Positions 4,548 to 62,804 of a stretch of 64,000 nucleotides of DNA are shown in pieces. Below the pieces are notes generated by a model. That model was not told the DNA's origin. It made no database searches and worked only from the letters and a program-made list of their open reading frames with translations. Origin of the DNA: a candidate division WOR-3 bacterium (GTDB taxonomy: Bacteria > SDB-A); contig JAFGSQ010000056.1 in the NCBI GenBank assembly GCA_016934535.1, forward strand, positions 1 to 64,000, written 5' to 3'. Both the position numbers and the translations under genes were made by a program. The first letter of the stretch is position 1. Each line of letters opens with the position of its first letter.

Positions 4548-7500
4548 CTATTTCAGACATGAGATGATCTGACTAACGGTTCTTCTTTTTCTGAAGGCAT
4601 TTTTGGCATCTTCGGTTCTGAAAACTTTATCGTACCTGTTTATAATCTTTTTGCATTCTTCAGCAGTTCTTTCGTAATGTTTGCCGTGTTTTGGAAAAAT
4701 TGCGAGTAAAAATGCAAGACTTGCTAAGTCTTCAGGCCATTTATCGTCCGAATCGAGTTGTTTTTCAAGCCTTTTTAGGGAGGATGAAAATATTCTGCCG
4801 TTTCCGAACTTCTGAGCTAAAAAAGTAGAGACTATGCAGTGATTTAAAATGATTCCGGGAAGACCTTCATTTTTTAATTTACTGAACAGTCGTTCGAAAT
4901 CGCATTTGTAATCCTCGGCTAATTTGGAGTTTTCGATTTCAGCAGATCTTAGTAAAAGTATCTGAAGAATATAAAAATGCATATTTAAGCTTTTAATTTC
5001 GCTGAAAATCTTCATTGACTCAATCAGGTGGTTTATTGAAGCCGTTATCTCGTTTTTGTTGTATTTTACTTCCGCCAAACCGAGGTTGTAGTATCCTTCT
5101 CCTATTTTGTTTTCGATCTTCAGGTTAATTTTGTGATATGTTTCCAGCCATTTTATGGCTTCACTGTTTTTTCCGAATTCAGTGTAATAAGTTGAGATGT
5201 TGTAGGACGAGATTGCTTCGCCGAGCGCGTAGCCTGTTTTACGATCTATGTCGTTCGATTTTTCATACGCCAAAAGGGCTTTTTGAGGTTTCCCTAGGCT
5301 GTCGTAAATTACTCCGAGGTTGTTGTAGTTAGTCGATAGGATGGAGAGCAGTCTCTTTTTCGAGGCTTTTTTTTCGATTTCAAGACGAATTTTCAAAGCT
5401 TTCAAAGGCTCGTCTTTTTCATTGAGAATATCGGCCAGTTTACCTCTTAATGAAATAGTATCTGAATCGTCCTTTCGGGAAATAAATTTTTCCGCTTTTA
5501 AAAGATACTCGTGAGAGCCGTTTATGTCTCCAAAAAAATAAAGCACATCCGCTTTGTTCATGAAAATCCTGAAAAAGAATGTATTCTGCAGTTTACTGCG
5601 TTTTAATTTTTTCGCAAGGATAAGCGCTTTTTTCAGGCAATTCCGTGCTTCAGTAAATCGGCTCATCCTCACAAGCTGACTGGATAACTCCAAAAAATAT
5701 GTTATTTTCTCGGAATGATTAAGAGGAAGAGACCTGGCTTTTTCAAAAAATCGAAGGGATCTTTGATGGTTTCCGCTGAAACCGAGAAGTCTTCCCGATG
5801 TCATGAGAAAATCGAAGTAAATAGTTTTCTGAGGAGCGAAATGTCTGTTTTCAGTTATGTCTGAACATTTATCGAGATACTCTATTGAGTGATGAAAGGA
5901 ATAGCGTTTTTCGTCGTAATGCGCCGAAAAAAGATAATAACGGAATGCATCCTTCAAGTTCCCTGATGCTTCAGCGTGGTGAGCCAGCATATGAGCGTTG
6001 GAAATTTCATTTGAAAGTGATTTTTCAAGAAAACTGAAAATCCTTCCGTGTAAATTCGTTTTTTCTTCGTTTGTAAGACTGGCGTATATTGAATCTCTTA
6101 TGAGTATATGATTGAAAATGAATGCGCCTTCGTCGTTTTTTGATATAAAATTCCTACCTACCGTTTTAAAAATTGTCTCCTTGTCAGAAATTCCCGAAAT
6201 GAAAGAGGCCAGGTTTTGATCGAACGCATAACCGACTGCTGATGCGGTTTCGAGAAATATTTTTGATTTCTCGTCCAACATGTCAAAACGACTCAAAATG
6301 ATCTCACCAACGGATTGCGGTACTTCAAAATCGGCGGAAGGTCTGCCTTTCCATGTGTTATTTTCCTTCCACACAATACCTTTTTCGACGAGCATTTTCG
6401 TTATTTCTTCCAAAAACAGAGGGTTTCCCTGACTGTATTTGATGATTTTATCTTTCAAAACAGGAGGTATGTTTTCTATGTTGAGAATAAAAGAAATCAA
6501 TGAATCGGATTGCTCTTTTTTCAGAGGTTTCAGGTTCATTTCATGCAAATTTGAAATTCTTTCAAATTTATCCCTGTATTCTCTGAGTATTTCAACGTCT
6601 TGTATCGAGCGAGCGACCAGTATGAAAATGACTCTGTTCGGCGGAAGTTCCCTTATGAAAGTGTCAATCATGTCGAGCAGTGGTTTTCTCGCCCAATGAA
6701 GGTCTTCAAAAACCAAAACAAATTTTATTCCCGGAGATTTGTTTAATCTGTTGTTGGTCAATTCTGCGAGTGTTTTCAGCAGGAACCTGATTTTGGGTCT
6801 TTCGGTGTTGATTTTTTGTATTCCAGAAAAAAAATCCTTGAACGTTTCGGCGGCAAGCTTGTAGTAAAAAATGCCTTCACTTTTTAAAAATGCCTCTGTC
6901 TTTTCATTGTCTTTTATATTCGTTGAACCGAAAGGTATTCCCGGAAGCATATTTTCAACGAAGGATTTTACGCTGTAGAAACTGTCCGCACCGTACGGAA
7001 GAGTTCTTGTTTTAATGCTTTCAGATTCTTTTATATGGTTGTAAATGAATTCTTCGACGAATCTGGTTTTTCCGACTCCCGGCTCGCCCGTGACGAGTAA
7101 TAATCGGTGTTTATCGTTTTTCTTTTTGAAGTAATTGCAAACCGAAAGAGTTTCCGTTTCCCTGCCGACAAAAGGCACTTGAGTCCATTTGACACCCCTT
7201 CTGCTTTTCCTTTCAGTTTTCACCGAAAGAAATTTATACACGCATACACCTCTTTTTTTCCCTTTGAATTTAATGTCACCGATTAAACGATAATTGAACT
7301 GGTGAGAAGTCGCTTCAACGACTCTTTCGCTGACGTATATGTTATTTTTAGGACATATTTGCTGTAATCTGCTGGCAACGTTAATGGCGTCGCCTACGAT
7401 AGAAAACGATGAAACTCCGTTTACTTCAATGTGACCGCACAGAACATTACCGGAGTGTATGCCTATGTGAAAAGAGATCGGAATACCCGATTCAGAGGTA

Positions 7501-7772
7501 AGAGTGCCAGAGGATTTAAAAATAGAAAAAGCTGTAAAAACGGCTCTTTCGTCCTGGTTTTCAAGAGACGAAGGAACTCCAAACGAAAAAACTATCTGAT
7601 CGCCGACAACCTGATAAAGATTTCCTCCGAAGTTTTTGGCTATGGAGTCTGTTTTACAGAAAACTGACTCAAGAATTTTTTTTACTTTTTCGGGATCGTT
7701 TTTCTCGGCAATTGATGAAAATCCGACGATATCAACAAAAAGAAGAGTGCAGAATCTTCGGGAAGTTTTCAT
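4548..7772 (-). CDS. Class III nucleotidyl cyclase / AAA ATPase / TPR signalling protein
   Basis: 1074 residues. The class III cyclase domain (about 8-185) has metal-binding Asp14 (FVDIVGF) and Asp58 (VVGDQIVFSFG) and a GDAINVASR motif (127-135) with the usual Asn and Arg. The position that normally holds the adenine-specifying Lys is Gln54. An STAND-like ATPase follows, with Walker A GEPGVGKT (229-236) and Walker B-like VLVFEDLHW near 355. The C-terminal half is alpha-helical with tetratricopeptide-like repeats (for example YNNLGVIYDSLGKPQKALLAYEKS). This architecture is known for large bacterial cyclase regulators in which the repeats probably bind a partner. It starts eight bases after sprA, so the two are probably co-transcribed. 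Confidence 0.88.
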   Translation of the reverse strand: MKTSRRFCTLLFVDIVGFSSIAEKNDPEKVKKILESVFCKTDSIAKNFGGNLYQVVGDQIVFSFGVPSSLENQDERAVFTAFSIFKSSGTLTSESGIPISFHIGIHSGNVLCGHIEVNGVSSFSIVGDAINVASRLQQICPKNNIYVSERVVEATSHQFNYRLIGDIKFKGKKRGVCVYKFLSVKTERKSRRGVKWTQVPFVGRETETLSVCNYFKKKNDKHRLLLVTGEPGVGKTRFVEEFIYNHIKESESIKTRTLPYGADSFYSVKSFVENMLPGIPFGSTNIKDNEKTEAFLKSEGIFYYKLAAETFKDFFSGIQKINTERPKIRFLLKTLAELTNNRLNKSPGIKFVLVFEDLHWARKPLLDMIDTFIRELPPNRVIFILVARSIQDVEILREYRDKFERISNLHEMNLKPLKKEQSDSLISFILNIENIPPVLKDKIIKYSQGNPLFLEEITKMLVEKGIVWKENNTWKGRPSADFEVPQSVGEIILSRFDMLDEKSKIFLETASAVGYAFDQNLASFISGISDKETIFKTVGRNFISKNDEGAFIFNHILIRDSIYASLTNEEKTNLHGRIFSFLEKSLSNEISNAHMLAHHAEASGNLKDAFRYYLFSAHYDEKRYSFHHSIEYLDKCSDITENRHFAPQKTIYFDFLMTSGRLLGFSGNHQRSLRFFEKARSLPLNHSEKITYFLELSSQLVRMSRFTEARNCLKKALILAKKLKRSKLQNTFFFRIFMNKADVLYFFGDINGSHEYLLKAEKFISRKDDSDTISLRGKLADILNEKDEPLKALKIRLEIEKKASKKRLLSILSTNYNNLGVIYDSLGKPQKALLAYEKSNDIDRKTGYALGEAISSYNISTYYTEFGKNSEAIKWLETYHKINLKIENKIGEGYYNLGLAEVKYNKNEITASINHLIESMKIFSEIKSLNMHFYILQILLLRSAEIENSKLAEDYKCDFERLFSKLKNEGLPGIILNHCIVSTFLAQKFGNGRIFSSSLKRLEKQLDSDDKWPEDLASLAFLLAIFPKHGKHYERTAEECKKIINRYDKVFRTEDAKNAFRKRRTVSQIISCLK

Positions 7773-7780
7773 TTGATTTG

Positions 7781-10700
7781 TCAGAATCTGAATTCAGCCC
7801 AAAGATTAACTCCGACGTTCCTGATTTTTCTTCCCGTTTGCCTGTCTTCGTTGATGGAGTAAGTGCCGTTCATTCCTCCCGTGACGTTCTGAGAAAAATT
7901 ATAAGAAGCCATGGGAGAGATCGTGTAATTGGATCTGAATGAAATTATCTCTCCGGAGGTCCTGTAAAGTTCTTTTGCCGTATTGTAATTATAAGCGAGT
8001 GAAAAGGTCATCAGGCTGTTGAACTTGAGCGTCCTGCCGAAAAACGGCAGACCTCCCGGGGCTGAGAAACTGTAACCAACCGTCGCTGAATACGAATTGT
8101 TTTCCTGTCTGAGGTAGGTTTTAATGACGCCTATGTTGTCTATGTCGGTCTGTGTTTTTGTCGTCGAGAAATTAGTAAGAAATCCGTTTTTCCATCTTAC
8201 TTGCAAAGACAACAAAGGCGACAGATCTATCCCCAAAGTTGTTCTCGTAGGTTCCTGATCTTCTGGCCCCGATTTTGTCTTCGTGGTCGAAAAGCCGGTT
8301 GAAACGGTTGAACTTTCTATGGCTTTCAGTTTGAGCAGTTTTTGCAAATTTAAAAGACTGACTGTTAAACGCGGCCATGTGGTCGATTCAGTGTAAGTCA
8401 TGTTTCCTATATTGCCGCCGAAATTTCTTGACCAGGCAAAATGAACACCCGTTGTCAGATTGGGAAAACTGAGGCCGGAATTGCCTGTAAAACCATAGGT
8501 CCAGCCGAAATAATCGTTGGGAGATATATATTTACCCGTTTTTTCGGAGTCGATGTTTTCGACGAGTCCAAGTTGGTACTGCCAGTCAGGGATGCCGGTA
8601 AGTCTGTAAAGACGGGTCGTCCTCGTTCGTGAAACAGTTAAACTTAAAGGATTTATGTTGCGGCCCAACCGCCCGATGTTCATCAACAACCAGTGCGGAG
8701 ATCCGACTGTTGCAGATGAATCGCGATTTTCGTCCCTTATTTTTCCTACGAATTCCAGGGGTTGTACAAAACTTATAGAAGTGTTGAAAGAAAGAGTGTT
8801 GGTGTTTGAAACGTTGAAAATGTCGGTAGTATCGTATGTCATAATCAATTCGGGGCGGGAATCTTCCGAATAATTTGTTTCAAAGGATACTGTAGGTCTT
8901 ATAAAAGGAAGAGGAAGAGGTGTGTATCTGGCTGAAACTCTCTGAGTTTTCAATATCTGTCTCCCGAGAAAATATTCCGATATTTCAATGTCTCTGTTCT
9001 GGGAGATTGAATAAGTCAGATTAAGCGGTTTTAAAAGATTGTATCCGAGGGTCATAGTGGAATTCAGATTTCTCTGAAGAAGATTTTGCAGAAGCTGTCC
9101 CGACGTATCCGGAATCAGATGAGACGCGACTTTTGTGTAGGAATATGTGGAGGTAAAACTTATGTTGTTGAAGAACGTTCCGATTTCCTGTCCGGCGAAT
9201 TTTATTGTTTTAATTGAAGGGTTGTGCGACCAGGAGTAAGTAGCCGTTTTTACCCAGGACGAATCCGCTCTGTTGTAACTCAGATTGTTCACATTTGTCC
9301 ATGAGTAATTAAACCTTGAATGATCAATTACCAGAGAGGCAAGAAGATTTAGCGTTCTGCCGGATTTTGAAAAAGCAAAAGAGTAGTGACGCGTTTCCGA
9401 CGATGAAGATTTGTCGTTTGATTCATCCGGATTGAGTCTTATGTCCGATCCGGGATAGAATTTGGGGAGACTGTTGGTTTTCGAGTAAGAGGCGGTGAAG
9501 GGAAGCGACAACATCCATCTTGAAGGTAAAAATTTTCCGCCCTGAAAAATAGCTATTCCGGAATAATTCGTCGAGGTCGAGCCGCTGCCTCTTTCCTCTG
9601 TAATTCTCTGATAGTCGGCGCCATACTGGTAACCGGCAAGGTTTACAGTCAAGACATCTCCGAAAGACATCCCGACGTTGACGTTCGCGGCCATGCCTCT
9701 CTCACGGTAAGGAGAGATCAGCCGAAGGTCATCTATCCATATCTCACCGCCAAGGCCGGCCGTTTGATTCTGGCTGACAATGCTAATGGATGTCCTGTTT
9801 ATTTTTGTAAGGGAAGGTTTGTTAGCTCCGTATGTCGTGACGAAATAATTTCCGGAATTCCAAGTCCCGGAGGTGTCTCCTTCGATGGTTTTTTTCAATT
9901 CTATGAATTCATCGAACTCAATCGAAAGCTCCTGCCACCCATTCGGAACAGGCGTGCGGTATTCGTAGTAGGAAAGCGTGTCCCCGCCGAATTTAATTGA
10001 AAAATACCCGTTCTGTCCTTCTCCGTGAACGTAAACGAGCATTTTTCTGTAGTTGTTGTAATTATCTTCGAGTACGGTTGAATAATAGCAACTGGCTGAT
10101 CTGTTGTAACCGAGATTCCTAATGACAAAAGCGAGGGATTGTTCTTTTTTTGTGTTTCCGTAATTGTCTCTGCCCGGGTCGAACGGAGGCGTGTAATTCG
10201 GGTCGTCGTAATTGTTTCTCGTGGTGACTTCGAAGAACTCTTCAGGAAGAATTACCGCGGCGGAATCCACAGAAAAAACGTCGTTTCTTTTCCATCTGTT
10301 GCCGGACACTGAAATCCCGCCGAAAACCAGCGAGTCTGTGTTTGTAGTAAAGCTGTCGATCCAGATTCTGGCGTATCGCACTCTTTCCCAGTCCGGATAA
10401 CCGACGACAGTTCCTATACCGCTGTCGTGAAGAGGGATTTTGTATAGTCTCCAGCCGTTTCCTCTGTCTATGTCAAGAAAAGAAGTGTCGCCGGGAGAAA
10501 ACGAATATTCGACGTAGTCGCGCGAGAGATTTAGTATTCCGTCGCCGTTCAGATCTTCGGTGTCAAGTATTTTATTGCCCTCTGTTCCCTTGAGCTGTCT
10601 GTAAGTGGAAGAGTTTACGTCGTCAGGGTAATCGTCGTTCCATTCGTCGCCGGGAACATGATTGGCGTCTACGCCTTCGATGCCGTCCAGACCGAAATCT

Positions 10701-13369
10701 TCGCCTATGTCGAGAACGCCGTTTCTGTTTTTATCTTCGGTGTTGAGAATCCCGTTCCAGCCGGCAATCGAATCCGAAACTCCGGTTCTTCTAGCGACGT
10801 CCTCCGTTATACTGTAACCGAGGTCGATGTTAACTCTGCCCCCGTCTCCGTATACCCACACTTCGAGATATCTGAACTGAGACAAGTCGGCTCCCGTCTT
10901 TGATATACACTGCTGAATGGATACGAACGAGGCCGGGGACTGATTCCTCGGTTCGATTACGAGACTGAGAACCTGAATGTTGTCGTTTCTCTCCTGTTCG
11001 GGAAGATTGGGATATAAATGGCCTTTTGTGAACCAGTCGTTAGGGCTGTACCAGTAAATATGTCCAAGATCCGCCGTGTCAAGGTAAACAGGCGAGTTGT
11101 TTATTATTTCGTCGGGTATGCTTCCAAAATGCCAGTTTGCTCTGCTGACACCGAGATTCAGCGACATTTTGTTTCCATCCATATCGTCGAGATAGACAAA
11201 TCCCTTAGTGTTGGGATTAGGCATGGAAAACGCGACGGCGCCTCTTATGGAAAGATTGGACGGAACGGTAGAAGTGATAAACGGCAAAATATCGACGGCT
11301 TTGGTCATAAAAGAAGGGCTGAACGTCAGATTGGCGTCCATAGTAGCCATTGTGATGTTTCTCGGTTCGTTTCCGAGTTGAGGGTGTTCTTCTTTTGTGC
11401 TTATACTGCGGTACATAGTTGTCGCGCCAATGTTTATGGCCGGGGATATGCTGTAATTGAACCTGACACCGAGTAGAGATTTGTCTGCGAGGCTTATGAA
11501 AGGGGCGTATTGAAAATCTATATTTACCACAGCGTTTACGTCGTTGACCTTGTCGGTTATGAACGTGATTATCCCGATGTCGTAATCTATTGTGTAATCG
11601 ACGTTCCTCACAAGTCTTTCTCCGTTGATGGTTACGACTTCGGAACCTTCGAGTATGTTCATCGCTCCCAGGGAAAACACAGATCTTATTCCCTTGTAAG
11701 ACAAGACCAGTTTGTATTTTCTTCCGACGTTTGTAGAGGTCGTGTCGTAAATTATCGAATCCGGGTCAAGTAGTGCCGCGCTCGCGAAGGGCTTTTGAAG
11801 AGAGTCGGGAAAAGCGATAAATCCCCTGTCGTAATCTATGTATCCGTCGTCAATGTATCCGTTGTCATCGTCGTCCAGACCGAGCAGTCTCAAATAAGTA
11901 GTGGCGCCCTGTGTTTCTTCGTCAATACCTGAACCAGTATTATGTTTGAAAATTTTCAGCTCGAAACTGCCTGGGACAATCGCCGTGGACCTGAGTGAAT
12001 ATCTGTTTCTTATCTGCAAATCCCAGGTTGGATAATATGTCCTTTCGACTATCGGTTTTAATACTTTTATGTCGATGGTCTGAGATGTGTCGTATTGGTC
12101 CTGAACCGTACCTACGGTGTCTACTCTGTAAACCTGACCGCCGGGAACATTTCTTCTGTTAATGACATAACACACTCCGAGAGCGTAATTCTGATCCAAA
12201 GGAATCCTGAGTTCCAGAGTTTTGCTTTGATAATTGAAAATATAAAAATTGTCTGAGCCCGCTTCCTGAGGATCGAAATATCCGAGTGACATGACAGTGT
12301 CAGGATAAGGAGAAGCCGTGTAAAAGCGAAGTCTGCCTTTTATGGCGCCGGTCAAGGCGTTGTTTGTTCCGTTGTTGTCGTCAACCCAAACAATAAGCTT
12401 TGTTATTGAGTCGTATGGATTTATGTCGCCCAAAGAATCACCCGGCCGGCCTAACCAGAAGTATTGCCTTCTGATGTAATCAGTGTCCCAGAGTACTAGG
12501 GTGTCGACGGAAGCTCTGCCCACGAAAGTACGACGTTCAGCTTTTCCCTCTTCCTTTGTTGCTATTGCAGTGATATTTATTCCGGCTACCTGCATTTCTG
12601 ATTTTATTCCGAAAAGACCCATCTGGATCGGCGGCATTCCAATCAGTTCAGTGCCGGGAAGCGATAGCTGAGTGTGCCCCATTTCTATCAGGTGAATTAT
12701 TTCGTCCTGCTCACCCCTGTATTGCAGTCTTATTTTGTTTTTCAGATCCGCCTGAGCTTCACTGTTGTGATCGACAAAAACGTTAATCTTTTCTCCGATC
12801 GTGCCCTGGAGGTTGACGTTCAGTTGTTGTTTCATCTCAAGTTCCGGAAGGAAATCGTTCTGTGTGTATTCGGTCTGTATGGCGTTGAGATCGGTGGACT
12901 GGCTTCCTCCGAACTGGATTCGCTGGGACCCGCTGATTTTCAGATTGCCTCCCTGGCCGATGAAACCGGCAATCGCGCGAGGTATTCTTATGGGAAGATC
13001 GATGTCAGGTATCAGACCTTGATTGGAGAGGGTCTGCTGCTGCTGGAGAAAGCTCATTGTGTAATCTGCCAGTTTGTTTTTCAGTGTCGAAGAATAGGCA
13101 TAAGCTTTGTAATCTTTTACTGAGATAATATTTTCCGTCCACAGGGATAGGGAATCGTAATAAGCCTCTTCGATCAGCATTCCCCTGTCCGGCAGTATAG
13201 TCTGCCTGAATCGGAGTTTCGTCATGTTTCTGTAAACGTAATCTCTCATCATGCCGCCAATGCGGGAATTAAAATCAGTTGTCTGTGAGTTTATAGGAAA
13301 CGACGGCTGTAACAAAAAAGCCGCGGTCTGAAGCACCAGAAAAAATAAAGGTTTTCTTATTTTATTCAA
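7781..13369 (-). CDS. sprA: SprA/Sov-family outer-membrane protein (type IX secretion translocon)
   Basis: 1862 residues with a signal peptide (residues ~1-30). SprA-family traits are visible: long beta-rich stretches, the segment LEVWVYGDGGRVNIDLGYS, Asp-rich loops such as DDDDNGYIDDGYIDYDRG (~500) and LDTEDLNGDGI (~945), GYPDWERVRYARIWIDS, and a C-terminal third of repeated short strands ending in Phe. In Bacteroidetes SprA is a very large (~2400 residue) 36-stranded barrel that passes T9SS cargo across the outer membrane; this copy is shorter. Two proteins in the window have T9SS-like tails and are plausible cargo. Its ATG overlaps the upstream ferredoxin gene by eight bases. No other T9SS component is in the window. 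Confidence 0.88.
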   Translation of the reverse strand: MNKIRKPLFFLVLQTAAFLLQPSFPINSQTTDFNSRIGGMMRDYVYRNMTKLRFRQTILPDRGMLIEEAYYDSLSLWTENIISVKDYKAYAYSSTLKNKLADYTMSFLQQQQTLSNQGLIPDIDLPIRIPRAIAGFIGQGGNLKISGSQRIQFGGSQSTDLNAIQTEYTQNDFLPELEMKQQLNVNLQGTIGEKINVFVDHNSEAQADLKNKIRLQYRGEQDEIIHLIEMGHTQLSLPGTELIGMPPIQMGLFGIKSEMQVAGINITAIATKEEGKAERRTFVGRASVDTLVLWDTDYIRRQYFWLGRPGDSLGDINPYDSITKLIVWVDDNNGTNNALTGAIKGRLRFYTASPYPDTVMSLGYFDPQEAGSDNFYIFNYQSKTLELRIPLDQNYALGVCYVINRRNVPGGQVYRVDTVGTVQDQYDTSQTIDIKVLKPIVERTYYPTWDLQIRNRYSLRSTAIVPGSFELKIFKHNTGSGIDEETQGATTYLRLLGLDDDDNGYIDDGYIDYDRGFIAFPDSLQKPFASAALLDPDSIIYDTTSTNVGRKYKLVLSYKGIRSVFSLGAMNILEGSEVVTINGERLVRNVDYTIDYDIGIITFITDKVNDVNAVVNIDFQYAPFISLADKSLLGVRFNYSISPAINIGATTMYRSISTKEEHPQLGNEPRNITMATMDANLTFSPSFMTKAVDILPFITSTVPSNLSIRGAVAFSMPNPNTKGFVYLDDMDGNKMSLNLGVSRANWHFGSIPDEIINNSPVYLDTADLGHIYWYSPNDWFTKGHLYPNLPEQERNDNIQVLSLVIEPRNQSPASFVSIQQCISKTGADLSQFRYLEVWVYGDGGRVNIDLGYSITEDVARRTGVSDSIAGWNGILNTEDKNRNGVLDIGEDFGLDGIEGVDANHVPGDEWNDDYPDDVNSSTYRQLKGTEGNKILDTEDLNGDGILNLSRDYVEYSFSPGDTSFLDIDRGNGWRLYKIPLHDSGIGTVVGYPDWERVRYARIWIDSFTTNTDSLVFGGISVSGNRWKRNDVFSVDSAAVILPEEFFEVTTRNNYDDPNYTPPFDPGRDNYGNTKKEQSLAFVIRNLGYNRSASCYYSTVLEDNYNNYRKMLVYVHGEGQNGYFSIKFGGDTLSYYEYRTPVPNGWQELSIEFDEFIELKKTIEGDTSGTWNSGNYFVTTYGANKPSLTKINRTSISIVSQNQTAGLGGEIWIDDLRLISPYRERGMAANVNVGMSFGDVLTVNLAGYQYGADYQRITEERGSGSTSTNYSGIAIFQGGKFLPSRWMLSLPFTASYSKTNSLPKFYPGSDIRLNPDESNDKSSSSETRHYSFAFSKSGRTLNLLASLVIDHSRFNYSWTNVNNLSYNRADSSWVKTATYSWSHNPSIKTIKFAGQEIGTFFNNISFTSTYSYTKVASHLIPDTSGQLLQNLLQRNLNSTMTLGYNLLKPLNLTYSISQNRDIEISEYFLGRQILKTQRVSARYTPLPLPFIRPTVSFETNYSEDSRPELIMTYDTTDIFNVSNTNTLSFNTSISFVQPLEFVGKIRDENRDSSATVGSPHWLLMNIGRLGRNINPLSLTVSRTRTTRLYRLTGIPDWQYQLGLVENIDSEKTGKYISPNDYFGWTYGFTGNSGLSFPNLTTGVHFAWSRNFGGNIGNMTYTESTTWPRLTVSLLNLQKLLKLKAIESSTVSTGFSTTKTKSGPEDQEPTRTTLGIDLSPLLSLQVRWKNGFLTNFSTTKTQTDIDNIGVIKTYLRQENNSYSATVGYSFSAPGGLPFFGRTLKFNSLMTFSLAYNYNTAKELYRTSGEIISFRSNYTISPMASYNFSQNVTGGMNGTYSINEDRQTGRKIRNVGVNLWAEFRF

Positions 13370-14279
13370 TATTTCTTTTCTTGCCGCCGACAGCCTGAAA
13401 TATCTTTTTAAACAAAAATTCGAAGTTCTCGTTCAAGCCGAAATTGAGAGCGTTTTTTTTGCACACCTTCACGCATTCTCCGCACAGAAAACAATTGCCA
13501 GACACGACGGCTTTTTCAATGGGCAATTCGATGTGGCATACTTTTTCGCACAGTCCGCAGGAAGTGCAGGCGTCTTTGCTCAGCCTGACCCTGACAAGAC
13601 TGAAACGCCCGAAAAATGAAAAAACTGCTCCCACCGGACACGCCAGTCTGCAGAAAGGTCTTTTGGCGTAAATGGAAAAAACGAGGGTTAACAACAGTAT
13701 GGAAAGCTTGAGAGAAAACATCGATTGGGCGAGATCTCTTAATGCTGAACTTGCGGCTCCGAATGAAATCAGAGGTATTCCCGCTTCGAGAGAACCGACC
13801 GGGCAGAGTTTGCAGAACCAGGGTTCGCCCGTAACTGCTGGAAGAAAAACAATGGCGACGACGAATATCAGATATTTGAGATGAGTTGCAAAATGGGGTA
13901 TTTTGATCTTTGTTGTTTTTATTCTGTTCAGAAGAGTTTGTATCAATCCGAAAGGGCATAGCCATCCGCAGAAAAGCTTGCCGAAAATCAGTGAAATAGA
14001 AAGCATAAATCCGAGGACGAATTGAGGAATTATCATCTCTCCGGTCAAATGTTTATACGTAAATACATGCTGAGTGACGCCGACCGGACAGGCGAAAGTG
14101 GCTGAAGGGCAGCTGTGGCAGTTAATAAAAGGTGTACAGTAGCGTTTTGCCGGTCCCGTGTATATCCCCTGGCTGAAGCCTTTGAAATAGCTGTTAAAGG
14201 CGGCGAAAGAAATCACTCCAATGAGAGTCCGGAATTTTAAAAAAACTTCTGTTATTCTATTCCTATGCATGAAAGGCAT
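13362..14279 (-). CDS. NapH/CcoG-like membrane 4Fe-4S protein
   Basis: 305 residues. It has about five membrane helices with two polyferredoxin membrane motifs, FCGWLCPFGLIQ and FCRLACPVGAVFS, followed near the C-terminus by two classical 4Fe-4S sites (CTSCGLCEKVC and CFLCGECVKVC). An additional Cys cluster, CTPFINCHSCPSATFACPVG, sits near residue 50. Such proteins pass electrons between quinols or cytosolic donors and periplasmic partners. The partner is not evident here, because the neighbours are small membrane proteins and SprA. The start is ATG 14279 or ATG 14270 (MHRNRI), overlapping the upstream small gene by 28 or 19 bases. Confidence 0.85.
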   Translation of the reverse strand: MPFMHRNRITEVFLKFRTLIGVISFAAFNSYFKGFSQGIYTGPAKRYCTPFINCHSCPSATFACPVGVTQHVFTYKHLTGEMIIPQFVLGFMLSISLIFGKLFCGWLCPFGLIQTLLNRIKTTKIKIPHFATHLKYLIFVVAIVFLPAVTGEPWFCKLCPVGSLEAGIPLISFGAASSALRDLAQSMFSLKLSILLLTLVFSIYAKRPFCRLACPVGAVFSFFGRFSLVRVRLSKDACTSCGLCEKVCHIELPIEKAVVSGNCFLCGECVKVCKKNALNFGLNENFEFLFKKIFQAVGGKKRNIE

Positions 14280-14560
14280 ATCCTCGAAGCGTAAGATCTG
14301 TATTCAGACAGCTCGGAAACGATGACGGAGTTTTGATTATCTTTCAGCCCCGAGACGATCAGTTTAGCCGAAACCAGTAAAAGGTAAGCGAACAAAAAAA
14401 GCTTGAGCCATAATAATTTTTTCGAACGCATAAATCCTATGAACAACAGTGCGGCAAAAAATACAAAAAATATATTGACCGCGATGGGATTTGCAGGAAA
14501 AGGAACCAGGATTTTTGTGAAATATTTAAAAGTCATTACAAAATAATTCATCACAAACAT
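14252..14560 (-). CDS. Small membrane protein, unknown
   Basis: 102 residues, with two clear hydrophobic helices (about 22-44 and 48-70) and a short C-terminal tail containing CLSC. A good ribosome site, AGGTGAG, precedes the ATG on the minus strand, which supports it as a real gene despite its size. It overlaps the membrane ferredoxin by 28 bases, so the two are probably made together; it might be an accessory subunit of that electron-transfer protein (inference). No family recognised. Confidence 0.6.
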   Translation of the reverse strand: MFVMNYFVMTFKYFTKILVPFPANPIAVNIFFVFFAALLFIGFMRSKKLLWLKLFLFAYLLLVSAKLIVSGLKDNQNSVIVSELSEYRSYASRICLSCIGIE

Positions 14561-14605: not shown

Positions 14606-14788
14606 TTATTTTTTTCTGAGAAACGGATACACCGCTAAAATTATAATTCCTATTGCGATTAAAACCCAGAATGCTTCGAAATTTGTTCCTCTGACGACAA
14701 ACTTGGATTTTGTAAAAAAACTGACCGCCTTGAGCGCTACGCCGGCGGTAAAAATTACAACGCCTGTTATTAAATCGCCTTTTTTCAT
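14606..14788 (-). CDS. Very small membrane protein, unknown
   Basis: 60 residues from the ATG at 14788 (a TTG six codons upstream, 14806, is an alternative). Two hydrophobic segments flank a short polar loop (SKFVVRGTNFEA), and it ends with basic residues (PFLRKK), as in a two-helix inner-membrane protein with both ends in the cytoplasm. No ribosome site is obvious. It is the first gene of the minus-strand run leading into sprA. Confidence 0.45.
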   Translation of the reverse strand: MKKGDLITGVVIFTAGVALKAVSFFTKSKFVVRGTNFEAFWVLIAIGIIILAVYPFLRKK

Positions 14789-14927
14789 AATTTCGCGAAT
14801 TCTCAAAAAAATTATTAACTGAATTTTCGCAAGAATTATGTAACATATACACTTTGAAAAGCATCAAGTCAACACAAAATCAACTCTGGAGTTTCCAATG
14901 AGTCTTTATTAGGTGTAAGGTTTATCC

Positions 14928-15017: not shown

Positions 15018-16538
15018 ATGAAGAAAAGTCAGTTATGGAAGTTAATAGTAATCGTAGCGGCCATCGGAATATCTCTTTTTCAGTTGTCATTTTCTTACAG
15101 GTATTACAGCCTGCCCAGAGAAGAAAGATATTTGCCTGAAAATGCACCTCTGAGAATGAGGTCGATTAAGCTGGGATTGGACCTCGAAGGAGGTTCTCAT
15201 TTTCTGCTCGCGGTCGACACTTCGGGAACAGGCGGAACTGACATGGTCAATCAGGTCGTCGAGATACTTATGAGCCGCGTTGACAAATACGGCGTAAGCG
15301 AACCCGTTATTGAAGTTCAGGGAAAAAACAACATAGTGATAGAATTGCCGGGCGAAATGGATCCAATGATCGCCAAAAAGCTGATCGGTACAACCGCCAC
15401 TCTCGATTTCAGAGTCGCGAGAAGAGCCGAGGAACTGAGAAACATAATAGACAGAATCGACAGGGAAAACGAAGGCAGATTTTCAGCTCTTCTTAAAACA
15501 TTTCCCGGAGGTCAAAGTATAATATGCAGCGCAAGCGACTGGAAAGTTCTTGATTCCATGATTGTAGATGCCAGATCCAAAGGCATAGCGGATTCAGCGT
15601 CCGGGAAAGTCCTTCTCTGGAGCGTAGTCGAAGAAGGCGAAGATTTCGGAATACCAGATTACAGAGAACTTCTTCTGGTCAGTTCAGTCCCTGAAATACT
15701 CGGAGCCTCTATAGTTTCGGCAAGGGCTGCGCTGGGAACGAGCAACAGCCAGACAGAGCCGAGGGTAGACCTCGAAATAGGAGGCATGGCGAGAGCGGAT
15801 TGGGCGAGAGTCACCTCGGAAAATATAGGGAACAGAATAGCCATAGTTCTCGACAACGAGGTTTTTTCAGCCCCGGTAGTAAACAGCGCTTCGACGACAG
15901 GAAAATCGACCATTACCCTCGGACGTGGGACTCTCGACGACGCAAAAGCGCTCGCTTCAGTCCTTCAGGCCGGAAGAATGCCCGCGAGAGCGGACATCGA
16001 GGAAAGTTTTGTCATAGGACCCAGCCTCGGCGCCGATTCGATAAGGACAGGAATCAAGAGCCTGCTGATTGCCGCCGCTCTCATAATGCTAATTATGCTG
16101 GTATATTACAGGTTGAGCGGCCTTGTGGCGGATTTTACCCTGGTGCTCAACATGCTTTTCCTTCTGGCCATACTGTCTGCGTTCAATCTCACGCTAACTC
16201 TTCCCGGAATTGCAGGTCTGGTCCTTGTTATTGGAACGGCGGTTGACGCCAACGTACTCATTTTCGAGAGAATCAGAGAAGAACTTGAACAGAACAAGTC
16301 CGTAAAAAAGGCTGTTGAAACCGGGTTTTCAAAAGCCTTCATTACGATTCTCGACGCCAATGTCACCACTCTATTATCGGCTCTCATACTCTGGTGGTTT
16401 GGGAAGGGTCCGATAAGAGGATTCGCCGTTACTCTCAGCGTGGGGCTCATAGCGAACGTCTTCACGGCTGTTTTTATCAGCCGCTTCATTTTCGACACTT
16501 TATTGACTAAAGATAAAACACAGAAGCTGAGCATATAG
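15018..16538 (+). CDS. secD: Protein translocase subunit SecD
   Basis: 506 residues. The architecture is an N-terminal membrane anchor, the GLDLEGGSHFLLAV motif near residue 53, a periplasmic P1 domain, and five C-terminal membrane helices with the RND-type core (LPGIAGLVLVIGTAVDANVLIFERIREEL). With SecF it uses the proton or sodium gradient to pull exported chains through SecYEG. The gene has its own promoter and a very strong ribosome site. It is followed 13 bases later by secF, the usual order. Confidence 0.97.
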   Translation: MKKSQLWKLIVIVAAIGISLFQLSFSYRYYSLPREERYLPENAPLRMRSIKLGLDLEGGSHFLLAVDTSGTGGTDMVNQVVEILMSRVDKYGVSEPVIEVQGKNNIVIELPGEMDPMIAKKLIGTTATLDFRVARRAEELRNIIDRIDRENEGRFSALLKTFPGGQSIICSASDWKVLDSMIVDARSKGIADSASGKVLLWSVVEEGEDFGIPDYRELLLVSSVPEILGASIVSARAALGTSNSQTEPRVDLEIGGMARADWARVTSENIGNRIAIVLDNEVFSAPVVNSASTTGKSTITLGRGTLDDAKALASVLQAGRMPARADIEESFVIGPSLGADSIRTGIKSLLIAAALIMLIMLVYYRLSGLVADFTLVLNMLFLLAILSAFNLTLTLPGIAGLVLVIGTAVDANVLIFERIREELEQNKSVKKAVETGFSKAFITILDANVTTLLSALILWWFGKGPIRGFAVTLSVGLIANVFTAVFISRFIFDTLLTKDKTQKLSI

Positions 16539-16551
16539 GAGGATCCCGGAG

Positions 16552-17925
16552 ATGACAAAGATATTTAAAAACCCCAACGTAAATTTCATAAAAGCAAGAA
16601 AAATCGCATATTCGATATCGGTTGTACTCTTTATTCTTTCTGCTGTATCTCTTGTTTTTCTTTGGAATTCGAGGCAGGGAATCGATTTCACAGGCGGAAC
16701 AATTATTAGGTTGACCGTCGACGAGGGAAAACTCAGCACAGCGAATATCAGGGGCATACTGTCCGGCATGGGAATAGGCAGGAGTATAATTCAGGAGACA
16801 AAGAATGAGAATTCAACTGGATACATAATAAGAATACCTATCATAGCGGAAGATACAGCCCACACAGCTTCCTCAATCCAAACAGCCGACAGCGCTCTCA
16901 TAAAATTCGTGGATGAATACGGAAGATCTGAAGTAAAGCTCGGCATATTTGTTAAGGAGGATTTGGCTCAGGACATTAGAGCGTTGGCCGACACAAACCT
17001 TTTCAAATTAAAGGGATTCGCAGTTCTCGAAGGAGAAACTCTCTATCTGATGGAAGGTGAATTCTCCGGAAACCTCACCGGAATTCGGGTGGCGGAGGGA
17101 TTGGGAAATATGATCCAGCTGACCACGCCGCTTGAACCAACTGTAAAAACGAGCGACAAAATGACAGGCAGAGGTTTCGACAGCGTTGTTGTTTTTTCGG
17201 ACATTGAAAATCCGGCTCTGTCGTTGAGGGTTTTCGCCGATTCTGCCAAGTGGGATTCGCTTGAAAAGGCTGCGTATCCTGAAGTCCGAGAGCAGGAGAT
17301 TTCAACTTCGATAGACGTGAGATTGAAAGAGGCCATAGAAAGCAGACACGAAGACGTCACAGTGACCGTTGCAGGAACCGAGCACGTCGGCGCGAGAATG
17401 AGCCACAACCTCAAAATGAGGACTCTTTGGGTCGTGCTTCTCGGGATAGCGGTTATACTCGGATACGTCAGCATAAGATTCACATACCGTTTCGGCGTTG
17501 CATCCGTCATAGCTTTGATCCACGACGTCATAGTAACCGCAGGAATATACGCCCTCACGGGATTTGAATTCAACATGTCTACAATAGCCGCTCTTTTGAC
17601 TCTCATAGGCTACTCAATAAACGACTCGATCATAGTCTCCGACAGAATAAGAGAAACAAACAAGATGAACAAGGGCAAGGAATTCGGCGAAATTGTAAAT
17701 CAGAGCATAAACGCAACTCTGAGCAGGACCATAATAACCGCCTTTACGACTTTCGTAGTACTTCTCGTGCTATTTATAGTCGGATCCACTACGATTAAGG
17801 ATTTCGCTTTCGTCCTCATGATGGGTGTAATAGTCGGAACTTATTCATCCATTTTCATAGTCGCGACAGTCGTTTATGACTGGGAAAAAAGATTTCCCAC
17901 TCCGTTAGGAAAATCAAGAGCCTGA
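16552..17925 (+). CDS. secF: Protein translocase subunit SecF with enlarged periplasmic domain
   Basis: 457 residues, against about 300-325 in most bacteria. The first helix and the RQGIDFTGGTIIRL motif (near residue 40) are normal, as are the last five helices from about residue 285 (FEFNMSTIAALLTLIGYSIN, DSIIVSDRIRE). The extra length lies in the periplasmic part between them, roughly 240 residues instead of about 100. The frame is uninterrupted and the flanks are intact, so this is a real insertion or expansion and not a frameshift. It follows secD with an AGGAGG site. tgt starts six bases downstream. Confidence 0.95.
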   Translation: MTKIFKNPNVNFIKARKIAYSISVVLFILSAVSLVFLWNSRQGIDFTGGTIIRLTVDEGKLSTANIRGILSGMGIGRSIIQETKNENSTGYIIRIPIIAEDTAHTASSIQTADSALIKFVDEYGRSEVKLGIFVKEDLAQDIRALADTNLFKLKGFAVLEGETLYLMEGEFSGNLTGIRVAEGLGNMIQLTTPLEPTVKTSDKMTGRGFDSVVVFSDIENPALSLRVFADSAKWDSLEKAAYPEVREQEISTSIDVRLKEAIESRHEDVTVTVAGTEHVGARMSHNLKMRTLWVVLLGIAVILGYVSIRFTYRFGVASVIALIHDVIVTAGIYALTGFEFNMSTIAALLTLIGYSINDSIIVSDRIRETNKMNKGKEFGEIVNQSINATLSRTIITAFTTFVVLLVLFIVGSTTIKDFAFVLMMGVIVGTYSSIFIVATVVYDWEKRFPTPLGKSRA

Positions 17926-25794: not shown

Positions 25795-26229
25795 GTGTAC
25801 CCTTTTTTAATGTCTCTTTTGTCTCAGTACTCGTCAACGGGTAATTATGATTACGAAACGGAAGGTTTGGCCGGGACTTTCATGGCGCTGGGTATTATAT
25901 GGATATTGGTAATTGCTCTTGTTTATGTAGCTGTTTTCGTCTTCCAGATAATTGTTTTGTGGAGAATTTTCTCTAAAACAGGTTATTCAGGAGCTTTAAG
26001 CCTTTTCATTCTGTTGCCCGGAATAGGGCATATCGTACTGCTCATATTCTCGCTGGTTCTTGCCTTTTCAAAATGGCCGATAGAAAAGGAGCTCGAAGAT
26101 TATAAGATGAGACTTTACGGGAAACCTTACAACGCACAAGGATCTCAGGGAACAAACATATACCTCCAGCAGCAGACTCCTCAACAGCAGACACCTCCGC
26201 CCCCGCCTCCGCCTCCGACAGTTCAGTAG
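25795..26229 (+). CDS. Membrane protein with Gln/Pro-rich tail
   Basis: 144 residues from GTG 25795, fixed by the AAAGGAGGT site four bases upstream. Two strong hydrophobic segments (about 32-58 and 69-92) are joined by LWRIFSKTGYSGALSLFIL, a pattern also seen in small membrane proteins that resemble the N-terminal part of some signal-peptidase-like families. The last ~25 residues are low-complexity Gln and Pro (QQQTPQQQT followed by a run of prolines). Function unknown. Probably co-transcribed with the exported protein at 26257. Confidence 0.6.
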   Translation: MYPFLMSLLSQYSSTGNYDYETEGLAGTFMALGIIWILVIALVYVAVFVFQIIVLWRIFSKTGYSGALSLFILLPGIGHIVLLIFSLVLAFSKWPIEKELEDYKMRLYGKPYNAQGSQGTNIYLQQQTPQQQTPPPPPPPPTVQ

Positions 26230-43866: not shown

Positions 43867-45906
43867 TCAGTATACTCTTGTGAATTTACCCGTGAAAACG
43901 TTGCCGTTGGAAGTTACTTTGTAGAAGTAAACGCCGCTGGATACATTTTCAGAATTCCACGAGAGGACCGAAGACTGGTTGACTGTTCCGGAGAAAGGAG
44001 TCGCCACGAGTCTTCCCGTCGCGTCAAATATCTCGAACTCGACCTGTGACGAAGAAGGAACCGTCACTGCGAGCCTTAATACATTGCCTACCTGGGCGAT
44101 CGATCTTACCGAGAAAGTCTCGGGATTGGCAATCGGATTTTCTTCGACTGCGTTGGGTATCCTTATAGTGACGTCGTCGATGTAGAATCCGGGGTAAGCC
44201 ACTGAGCCGTCAGATCCGAAATCCCACTGCAACCATATTGTCTGGCCGCCGTAAGTAGAAAGATCCATCGTGTACTGGTTCCATGCGTTCATTCCCGCTA
44301 CGTGACCCGTCCATATAGCCTGACCGTTGAGAGGATTCGAGGAATTCCCCGTTCCCGTATAGGCGGGCGCGACTCCGGTGAAAATATTGAAGGTCGTGCC
44401 GTCTGTCGAGATCTTCATGTTAGCGCCGTCGTAGCTGGCTTCTGAGTCCCACCACATCCAGAAATAACACTCAGATGCTGACATGTCAGCCGGAAGAGTT
44501 ATCCCGGGTGTAGTCAGCTGAGCGTTTGCAGAGTTGGGATAGTTGCCTGCCAGGACGGTCGCCCATACGTTGGATCCGCTATATGCCGCTCCGGGGCCTG
44601 AAGTCGGAGCGCCCCACTGCCATACACTCGCCGTTCCCGTGACCGTCATGTTTCCGCTGTCGGCTTCAAAGTCCTCGACGTAGAGGTCCTGGAACAACCA
44701 GGTGTGAAAATCTACGACGACCGTGTCGTTTGTCGTGACAGATCCGCCCGGATCGGTGACGAATGTCGCCGTGAAGTTGTGCCTGTACCACCAGGTCGTC
44801 CAGCTCGGGAAAGTGACCTGCTGTGAGTCTCCCGGGGCGAGGTTCGTGACCTGAACGGTCTGATCGTAAATCACTCCAGAAACGGATTCTTCAATAGTCA
44901 GGTCGACGTCAAATGTCTGAGGTCCGGAGCAGTAAGCACCCGCGAAGACCCAGCATTCGGGTGTGATAGCAGTCGCCGGAGGATATTGACCCTCGACGGG
45001 GACTACAACTCTCTGAATCCCGACATCGTTTATTGAAGGAGCGAGGCCGAGGGCGTAGACGAAATCCTGGTCACCCTGGCAGAATCCGATGAGACACGGA
45101 CCGAAACCGAGGAAATCCGGATAAAAATCGCCGCCGCCTGCCATATGATCTGTAAATCCAGCTGCGAAAGCAGGAATCGCGCAGTACAGGGTTTCCCTCG
45201 TCCATGTTCCCGTGTGATAATTGAGTCCGAACCACGTGCATTCCCAGCCGAGAGGGTTTGTCACCTGGCCGTGGTACCAAACTTTGTCTCCGTTGGGTAC
45301 AGAACCGGGAACAAATGCTGATCCGTAAACGGAGTAATCACCTGTTCCGCTCCATGGCGAGCCCGTCTTCTGGAATCTGCCCATCGATGTGCTGAAGTTG
45401 CCTGTCCAGAAAGTGTCGCCGGGAACCCAGGCTATTCCCCTGTTGGGGTTGGACTGTCCGGTGTAAGTGTTGACCTGAGTCATCGAAAAAGGCGACAGAC
45501 CCAGGACGTAGCCTCTGACGCCTGTTCCTGACTGGTCTCCGGCGTAAATGGTATCACCGGCGTCCCTGTCCATGTCTCTGTGTCCCCACGTTCCGGCGGC
45601 CTGGCCGGTTTGGGCGACGGAGCCGATGTAAGTTCCAGATACGTAATTAATCAAAAGAAAAACAGGCTGTGCTGTGTTCGCGTCGGTGATTATCATCAGA
45701 GAGTCGTCTATGACCTCTACACCGAGGAGTCTGTTGCTCGCGACACCGCCGAGACCCTCGATTACGAGAGACCAGACAAGCGGCATTTCAATTCCGTCTG
45801 TTGCCGGCATTGAGGGAATGTAGGGAGCGGCGTCTGTGTTCCCGCCTGCTGCGAACATTCCGGATGCGGCGAAAACCATCACCGCAAAGAACATGAGCGA
45901 CCTCAT
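43867..45906 (-). CDS. Exported protein with T9SS type A-like C-terminal sorting domain
   Basis: 679 residues from ATG 45906, which has AGGAGG six bases upstream; a longer in-frame reading to 45954 lacks one. There is a signal peptide (1-20). The first half reads like a repeated-blade or propeller region. Residues ~410-600 resemble the VEG/MAM-like jelly-roll module of immune inhibitor A peptidases (YVEDFEADSG... WQWGAPTSGP... QLTTPG... FYIDDVTI), but no HEXXH protease motif is present. The last ~75 residues (FEIFDATGRLVATPFSG... GVYFYKVTSNG... GKFTRVY) are a T9SS-type sorting tail. Probable surface or secreted protein using the SprA system. Confidence 0.8.
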   Translation of the reverse strand: MRSLMFFAVMVFAASGMFAAGGNTDAAPYIPSMPATDGIEMPLVWSLVIEGLGGVASNRLLGVEVIDDSLMIITDANTAQPVFLLINYVSGTYIGSVAQTGQAAGTWGHRDMDRDAGDTIYAGDQSGTGVRGYVLGLSPFSMTQVNTYTGQSNPNRGIAWVPGDTFWTGNFSTSMGRFQKTGSPWSGTGDYSVYGSAFVPGSVPNGDKVWYHGQVTNPLGWECTWFGLNYHTGTWTRETLYCAIPAFAAGFTDHMAGGGDFYPDFLGFGPCLIGFCQGDQDFVYALGLAPSINDVGIQRVVVPVEGQYPPATAITPECWVFAGAYCSGPQTFDVDLTIEESVSGVIYDQTVQVTNLAPGDSQQVTFPSWTTWWYRHNFTATFVTDPGGSVTTNDTVVVDFHTWLFQDLYVEDFEADSGNMTVTGTASVWQWGAPTSGPGAAYSGSNVWATVLAGNYPNSANAQLTTPGITLPADMSASECYFWMWWDSEASYDGANMKISTDGTTFNIFTGVAPAYTGTGNSSNPLNGQAIWTGHVAGMNAWNQYTMDLSTYGGQTIWLQWDFGSDGSVAYPGFYIDDVTIRIPNAVEENPIANPETFSVRSIAQVGNVLRLAVTVPSSSQVEFEIFDATGRLVATPFSGTVNQSSVLSWNSENVSSGVYFYKVTSNGNVFTGKFTRVY

Positions 45907-45957
45907 AGTTCCTCCTTGTTTAAAATTGTTCAATCGTGCCATAGCACATTTCACTTA

Positions 45958-61580: not shown

Positions 61581-62804
61581 TTATTTTATAAAATCGACTT
61601 TTTCCCTCATCTCTCCTTCGGGAGTGGATAAAGTTATGAAATATGTTCCGTTGATACAGTCGTTTCCAGTGCCGTCGTGTCCGTCCCAGTAAAATGAATG
61701 ATTTCCGGCGTCAAGCATTCCTTCGTTGAGAACTCTTACTTTTGAACCGTTGACGGAATATATTGAAACCGATACGAATTGCGGATATGTCAAACTGATA
61801 TTAATTTCGAGACTGTTGGCGAAAGGATTTGGGAATAATCTTAATACATTTATTCCAGTGTGTTGTTCGACAGGTTCTTCCACTCCGAGACCTGTCTCGT
61901 AAAGTTCAATGAACCTGCACTGTCCGGAATACTTTACTGCAATCTGCGCACCTGTGGCTGAATCGAGCTCGACAACTCCGACAGAACTTGTCGCAAGAAT
62001 GTTGCCGTTTCCGAGTCTGTAAACGCCTCTGGCGCCGCTGAAAGGCAGTGTCCTGAATATAGTTCCGCTCGTGTCAAAATCAGTGACGTTGTTCGCGGAA
62101 AATCCGGCTACCAGAAATTCTCCTGGCTGAACCGGATCGGAAATTATCTGCTCGGGAAAATTAATAGATATAATTTGTTTCACGAAACTCCCCGAAGCGT
62201 CGTAGAGTCTTACGTTGTCTGAAGATCCTTCTATGTCGGCCACAAGAGCGCTTCCGTCCGAGAGGAAAAATATGTCGAAAGGATCTATGGTTCCTGCGGG
62301 GACGAAAAAGCCCGCAGACGAATGAGGACCGCTGAACATGAAAATAGCCTTGTTGCCGGTTCCTCCGCATGTGACGAACAGAGTGTCGTTTCTGAAAGCG
62401 ATTCCCCTGACGTTGTCCAATCCGTCGGAGGCGTCTGCCGCTATGTACAAGAAATTTCCCAGAGAATCGAAAGCGTATACGGCGTCTGATACTTGATCTG
62501 AGAGGAAAATAATATTAGATGGTCCCTGTATGGCGTTGATAGGTGTTTGAAGGTCGTAATTGAGTCCGGTGGGATCGTCTACAATTATGTTTCCGATGTA
62601 TGTTCCGTCGTAGGGCGAAAACATGCCTACTACGTCGGCGTTTGAATCCGGGATAAGAAGAACCGACGCCTTGGGCATAGAAGATTTCTCATAGACTTGT
62701 TTTCCTGTCCAAGGATTGATACCCGACATCTCAGCCTCTTCCTGATTTGCAAAAATCATGATGGGAAGAGACAACAAAAACATGACACTGATTAAACGCT
62801 TCAT
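61581..62804 (-). CDS. Exported beta-propeller protein with FlgD-Ig/T9SS-like tail
   Basis: 407 residues. Signal peptide (1-19, ending FAN), then a repeated-blade propeller region (IIFLSDQVSDAVYAFDSLGNFLYIA, VRGIAFRNDTLFVTCGG, EQIISDPVQPGEFLVAGF). The C-terminal ~90 residues are a FlgD-type Ig tail: LRLFPNPFANSLEINISLT, VSIYSVNGSKVRVL, HSFYWDGHDGTGNDCINGTYFITL. In related lineages such tails substitute for or accompany T9SS sorting signals. An AAAAGGAGG site precedes the ATG. Confidence 0.82.
   Translation of the reverse strand: MKRLISVMFLLSLPIMIFANQEEAEMSGINPWTGKQVYEKSSMPKASVLLIPDSNADVVGMFSPYDGTYIGNIIVDDPTGLNYDLQTPINAIQGPSNIIFLSDQVSDAVYAFDSLGNFLYIAADASDGLDNVRGIAFRNDTLFVTCGGTGNKAIFMFSGPHSSAGFFVPAGTIDPFDIFFLSDGSALVADIEGSSDNVRLYDASGSFVKQIISINFPEQIISDPVQPGEFLVAGFSANNVTDFDTSGTIFRTLPFSGARGVYRLGNGNILATSSVGVVELDSATGAQIAVKYSGQCRFIELYETGLGVEEPVEQHTGINVLRLFPNPFANSLEINISLTYPQFVSVSIYSVNGSKVRVLNEGMLDAGNHSFYWDGHDGTGNDCINGTYFITLSTPEGEMREKVDFIK

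Follow-up and report, generated by a model that had tools for sequence, protein, structure and literature searches.

A SprA-family pore in a candidate division WOR-3 genome without a recognisable PorL/PorM motor

The reverse-strand gene at 7781-13369 of the window (the stretch of 64,000 nucleotides analysed here, on contig C56 of its assembly) very probably encodes SprA, the pore of a type-9-like export system, in which the energy for cargo extraction would not come from a recognisable PorL/PorM motor with a PorK/PorN ring. The type 9 secretion system (T9SS) is mostly described as a machine of Bacteroidota (or of the FCB group) that is driven by one of the three rotary motors known to be powered by protons (PMC9127263; here and below, citations refer to the accessible parts of the papers). 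Since the motor and GldN were tested for and not found, the system is, on its gene content, filed as T9SS-like and not as a canonical T9SS.

The long protein is a member of the SprA/Sov family

The gene in question is the following:

7781..13369, (-): sprA/sov, SprA-family outer-membrane translocon, 1862 aa, TTG start

In profile searches, its product exceeds the equivalog cut-off of TIGR04189 (441 bits; cut-off 200) and matches PF14349 (55 bits; cut-off 27). A PDB search with the single sequence retrieved Flavobacterium johnsoniae SprA only (6h3i/6h3j); with a three-sequence profile of the phylum, 6h3i and 6h3j were found at 159 bits together with one unrelated chain (E 0.18), and the alignment to 6h3i falls into five collinear blocks. 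The motif LEVWVYGDGG, a landmark named in the original prediction, is located at residue 835, and E836, G851 and E856 in the area of this block are invariant in an alignment of 26 diverse SprA proteins. Judged by these matches, the protein belongs to the SprA/Sov family. The prediction of a SprA-type translocon, which had proposed just this profile search, is thereby borne out.

The protein is homologous to F. johnsoniae SprA (PDB 6h3i, 8gl6 series) over most of its length, and TIGR04189 also covers Porphyromonas gingivalis Sov, a likeness by family model only. It differs from F. johnsoniae SprA in its operon and in its length (1862 versus 2403 aa). The remark that it is several hundred residues shorter than Bacteroidetes SprA therefore holds as a number (approximately 540 aa), but the length itself is ordinary. 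The 26 aligned proteins span 1852-2390 aa, mostly near 2000-2100, and the window protein is missing just three blocks of at least 12 columns (48 columns in all) that are present in most of them. On this alignment, 1862 aa is not an odd length; it is the Bacteroidota-like proteins that form the long end of the range. AlphaFold2 models of two fragments (residues 120-1180 and 780-1862), built from an input alignment of the window and L042 sequences only, had a mean pLDDT of 26 and are meaningless; the likeness to a 36-strand barrel with lateral gate is one of sequence homology to 6h3i only.

sprA lies in a conserved gene run

The genes around sprA are listed below from the start of the run, followed by the divergent neighbours.

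14606..14806, (-): membrane protein of 66 aa whose gene opens the run, with homologues at the same place in 4/4 phylum genomes
14252..14560, (-): 102-aa membrane protein ending RICLSCIGIE, overlapping the NapH-like gene
13362..14279, (-): NapH-like membrane protein with 4Fe-4S motifs, overlapping the sprA start by 8 bases (Fer4_5, 78.7 bits)
4548..7772, (-): protein with nucleotide cyclase, AAA ATPase and TPR domains, 8 bases downstream of sprA (Guanylate_cyc 84.7, AAA_16 50.2, TPR_12 54.6 bits)
15018..17925, (+): secD (15018-16538) and secF (16552-17925), divergent from the sprA run and neighbours by position (Pfam SecD_1st, SecD_SecF_C)

The run thus reads 66-aa protein, 102-aa protein, NapH-like protein, sprA and cyclase/AAA/TPR protein, with gaps of +45, -28, -8 and +8 in the window. 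It is also tight in genome G001; G003 has the same order with 101 bases before sprA, and the order is kept in all four phylum genomes as far as their contigs reach. The NapH-like gene is upstream of sprA in all four, the cyclase/AAA/TPR gene downstream in the three genomes whose contig extends that far; secD is at the same place in all four and secF in three, the fourth contig ending there. SecDF is itself proton-driven. The description of the operon partners as a membrane ferredoxin and a cyclase/AAA/TPR protein agrees with the Fer4_5, Guanylate_cyc, AAA_16 and TPR_12 matches.

Against TIGR02163, the NapH-like protein scores 95.9 bits, below the cut-off of 213, and the 66-aa protein had no family match in the profile search. 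The window, L047 and L049 share an identical CLSCIGIE ending of the 102-aa protein, and this protein matches the end of NF040920 weakly in all four genomes (10-14 bits; cut-off 32). Its end resembles the CD1871A CXXC family, under the cut-off of that family, and its gene adjoins that of the NapH-like ferredoxin. The cyclase/AAA/TPR protein reaches 175 bits against TIGR03903 (TOMM kinase/cyclase; cut-off 706) and diverges faster than SprA, with identities of 51% and 34% compared to 80% and 62% for SprA in the same genome pairs.

We compared this neighbourhood with 40 sprA loci outside the phylum, and none of them has the 102-aa, NapH-like or cyclase families of the window run. Near sprA at these loci are an M28 peptidase family (17/40) and an LptF/LptG family (8/40), each named from one representative among the ten neighbour representatives profiled. 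A common sprA neighbour was considered as a motor candidate and rejected, since the commonest are the M28 and LptF/LptG families and no motor-like gene was recognised among the ten representatives from the 40 loci. The M28 family is found downstream of sprA in many lineages (the 17 loci lie within L075-L110). M28 includes glutaminyl cyclases.

The host genome and the position of its SprA

The assembly (2.23 Mb in 76 contigs, completeness 100, contamination 3.92%) belongs with candidate division WOR-3, which is now Caldifarciminota in the NCBI taxonomy. Our phylum sample consists of four genomes, all of one family, and SprA is present in each. In a FastTree of 43 SprA proteins, from which the truncated copy of genome G002 was excluded, the proteins of the phylum form a deep group away from those of the two GldM-bearing genomes, the deep nodes being poorly supported (0.19-0.76). 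Because of this deep and separate position, the tree speaks against a recent transfer of sprA from Bacteroidota. That the contig strayed in from a Bacteroidota bin is scarcely credible: the 3.92% contamination estimate could be counted in favour, but the same gene run and flanks recur in all four genomes as far as their contigs reach, in the tree the SprA proteins stand well apart from those of the GldM-bearing pair, and a WOR-3 MAG (isolate Zod_Metabat.185, our G002) carries the sprA run as well.

Sortase, PorV-family barrels and predicted cargo

The original prediction proposed a search for porU and porV elsewhere in the genome, and this yielded a PorU on contig C4 and, next after it, a PorV-family barrel. 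The 1367-aa PorU scores 478 bits against NF033707 (equivalog cut-off 420), has PorU 6za2 as its sole PDB match and keeps the GHGN and SCGVG blocks, which we take to be the His and Cys catalytic positions of C25 peptidases. The barrel is over the PorV/PorQ subfamily cut-off (207.9 bits; cut-off 90) but under the PorV equivalog cut-off (130.6 bits; cut-off 250); its sole PDB match is the PorV of 6h3i. Genome-wide, there are 7 PorV/PorQ-family hits (5 over cut-off), 10 C25 peptidase hits (9 over cut-off) and 78 sorting-tail matches to TIGR04183 at E ≤ 0.001, several of the tailed proteins being C25 peptidases themselves. The window holds two tailed proteins, as had been predicted, both over the TIGR04183 cut-off of 23 bits:

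43867..45954, (-): predicted cargo, 695 aa, MAM-like domain and type-A sorting tail (TIGR04183 38.3 bits; InhA-like_MAM 51 bits)
61581..62804, (-): predicted cargo, 407 aa, sorting tail / FlgD-Ig domain (TIGR04183 37.9 bits; FlgD_ig 37.9 bits)

Given that SprA, PorU, a PorV-family barrel, C25 peptidases and tails were all found, this genome has the outer-membrane half of a T9SS, which probably works.

Two further observations concern predicted cargo. A gene for a 576-aa VWA-domain protein (window 42025-43755) is convergent with that of the 695-aa tailed protein. At L056:8481-12299, the gene of a 985-aa tailed protein weakly similar to extracellular nucleases is directly followed by a weak PorV-family match (55.7 bits), and the two are possibly a dedicated shuttle-cargo pair.

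In the known system, binding of the tail to PorV loops inside SprA takes no energy, and extraction needs energy from the motor; in F. johnsoniae the motor is required for cargo release (PMC10994853). As the genome has SprA, a PorV-family protein, PorU and tails, we take the energy-free tail-binding half to be conserved. Having reached the periplasm through Sec, cargo would dock by its C-terminal tail on a PorV-type shuttle within the SprA pore; shuttle and cargo would then exit SprA sideways as a complex, and PorU would cut the tail. The energy for extraction may come either from a motor that has diverged beyond the profiles or from another device.

Motor and ring genes

The genome resembles a canonical Bacteroidota T9SS in having SprA, PorU, a PorV-family barrel and many tails; unlike it, the phylum has no detected GldL, GldM or GldN (4/4 genomes), and its GldK-like proteins are indistinguishable from generic FGE proteins. 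The expectation that porK-porN would be encoded elsewhere in the genome thus failed in the four genomes searched. GldM has no match in any of them even at E ≤ 1. GldL has none over cut-off (68.3 bits) and weak matches in two, the best at 18.5 bits on the coiled-coil end and none in the window's own genome (G000). The GldL hit in G001 (E 0.003) was rejected, as it covers only the coiled-coil end (144-241 of 247) and 9 of 14 control genomes match too. For GldN there is no match over the cut-off of 23 bits; G002 has a single 16.5-bit match containing 2 stops, and the other three genomes have none.

The GldK profile does find proteins in all four genomes, none over the cut-off of 350 bits, and these are FGE-domain proteins. 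One of them, an FGE-domain lipoprotein with its own N-terminal domain, scores 130.5 bits, GldK being its best NCBIfam match. Matches of 108-126 bits were not accepted as ring evidence, because 104-105 bits are also reached, in G002 and G003, by an FGE protein of plainly another type, whose start resembles a zinc ribbon. At these scores GldK is not distinguishable from generic FGE proteins, and the GldK-like hits are read as generic FGE-domain matches.

As a positive control, the GldM of genome G205 (394 bits) sits inside a four-gene run sized as expected for GldK-L-M-N (GldM alone was profiled). We also scanned 216 kb of the window's own genome (the window and nine loci) for genes of short 2-TM proteins with a 1-TM protein gene next in line; the GldL/GldM pair of G205, used as a control, has this arrangement. 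No GldL/GldM-sized pair was seen near T9SS genes in this sequence. The scan gave three 2-TM ORFs, two of them without a codirectional 1-TM partner. The ORF at 25795-26229 of the window was rejected as GldL: it encodes 144 aa with helices at 37 and 70, and the next ORF encodes 170 aa with one N-terminal helix, much below the size of GldM.

SprA, tails and GldM in 386 genomes

SprA, GldM and tail profiles were each searched over the same 386 genomes, nearly all of which are related at domain level only. SprA is present in 153 genomes at E ≤ 0.001 (127 of 327 genera; 90 over cut-off) and tails in 155 at E ≤ 1e-4, while GldM is found in 8 at E ≤ 0.01, of which 3 are over cut-off (G205, G335 and G064). 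SprA and tails occur together in 141 genomes and are both missing in 219; 12 genomes, mostly with weak matches, have SprA only, and 14 have tails only. Tail counts are lower bounds, no more than 14 candidates being scored in each genome. At least five tails were counted in 115 genomes, 114 of them with SprA (the exception, G179, has nine tails and no SprA match), and GldM is missing in 112 of these 114. These co-occurrence counts indicate that SprA and cargo travel together and that the GldM motor does not follow them.

In G205 and G335, GldM scores 0.13-0.15 times as many bits as SprA (394/2705 and 264/2064). This ratio, applied under equal divergence, would lead one to expect a GldM of approximately 55-65 bits in the phylum; the figure is an inferred one, GldM may evolve faster, and the reach of the profiles limits the survey. 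In the genus of G091, G231 and G359, SprA scores 1126-1154 bits, yet these genomes show no GldM.

What might drive extraction

The reading of a complete T9SS, in which a GldL/GldM motor and a GldN/GldK ring have diverged past profiles built from Bacteroidota, has in our view about an even chance. Gld profiles are built mostly from Bacteroidota, GldL and GldN are short, and the FGE lipoprotein has GldK as its best NCBIfam match, FGE matches being found in all four genomes. Some motor is moreover expected, because known motor mutants load cargo without releasing it (PMC10994853). On the other side, a GldM of approximately 55-65 bits would be expected under equal divergence but four genomes searched at E ≤ 1 gave none, the three genomes with far stronger SprA scores also show none, the GldK-like score is not telling when a different FGE protein reaches 104-105 bits, and no pair of suitable size lies near the T9SS genes in the 216 kb scanned. 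That there is no PorL/PorM motor, and that the drive is an ExbBD/TolQR-type stator, SecDF or NapH-like/CxxC redox chemistry, or else that release takes place without a dedicated motor, is a real possibility, if one we would place somewhat short of even. It is favoured by the absence of GldM, GldL and GldN by profile in the four genomes, by the lack of GldM in nearly all SprA genomes with at least five tails, and by secD and redox genes beside sprA in 4/4 genomes. However, nothing positive links these neighbours to secretion, the other 40 loci have neither the NapH-like nor the CxxC gene beside sprA, and the absence rests on few profiles, with GldL and GldN tested in four genomes only.

It is very unlikely that SprA serves something other than the secretion of tailed proteins, such as outer-membrane assembly. 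The M28 and LptF/LptG genes near sprA in other lineages (17/40 and 8/40, one representative each) would suit such a role, as would genome G063, with a strong SprA (434 bits) and no tail at E ≤ 1e-4; but SprA is found in 114 of the 115 genomes with at least five tails, and the window's own genome retains PorU and a PorV-family barrel. An SprA pore exporting tailed proteins remains the preferred reading. A broader proposal is that the PorL/PorM motor is a Bacteroidota addition and that in many other bacterial lineages, this phylum among them, SprA, PorV and PorU would export dozens of tailed proteins per genome by another device, with no PorL/PorM homologue; we offer this tentatively and consider it rather doubtful.

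Relation to earlier reports

Type 9 export outside Bacteroidota has been reported or suggested before: a T9SS was inferred in Fibrobacter succinogenes (PMC6851124), FCB phyla are listed for T9SS (PMC11285876) and sorting tails occur in Kryptonia (PMC4737851). The present case is like these in its tails and inferred type-9 export; in their accessible parts, the three papers do not name WOR-3 or state whether a motor is present. Poribacteria are described as having tails but no Por structural genes (PMC3909097), and Abby 2016 found T9SS in Bacteroidetes only (PMC4793230). Our literature search, with most subscription papers outside its reach, found neither a report of T9SS in WOR-3 nor a statement that the motor is missing from SprA-bearing lineages other than Bacteroidota.

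Should the known motor be missing from most lineages that have SprA and cargo, the energy step is not universal, and these lineages would be the place to seek an alternative drive or an ancestral form. The question raised is what powers SprA pores outside Bacteroidota. With SprA in 153, tails in 155 and GldM over cut-off in 3 of 386 genomes, it can be tested by genome comparison, as can the main alternative that motor genes have diverged past the profiles.

Two surveyed genomes are of separate interest. G064 (locus L064) has a GldM over cut-off (362 bits), one tail and no SprA match. G199 (locus L083), a 0.9-Mb genome that is 98% complete, has a strong SprA (540.6 bits) and only 3 tails, and is possibly a minimal system.
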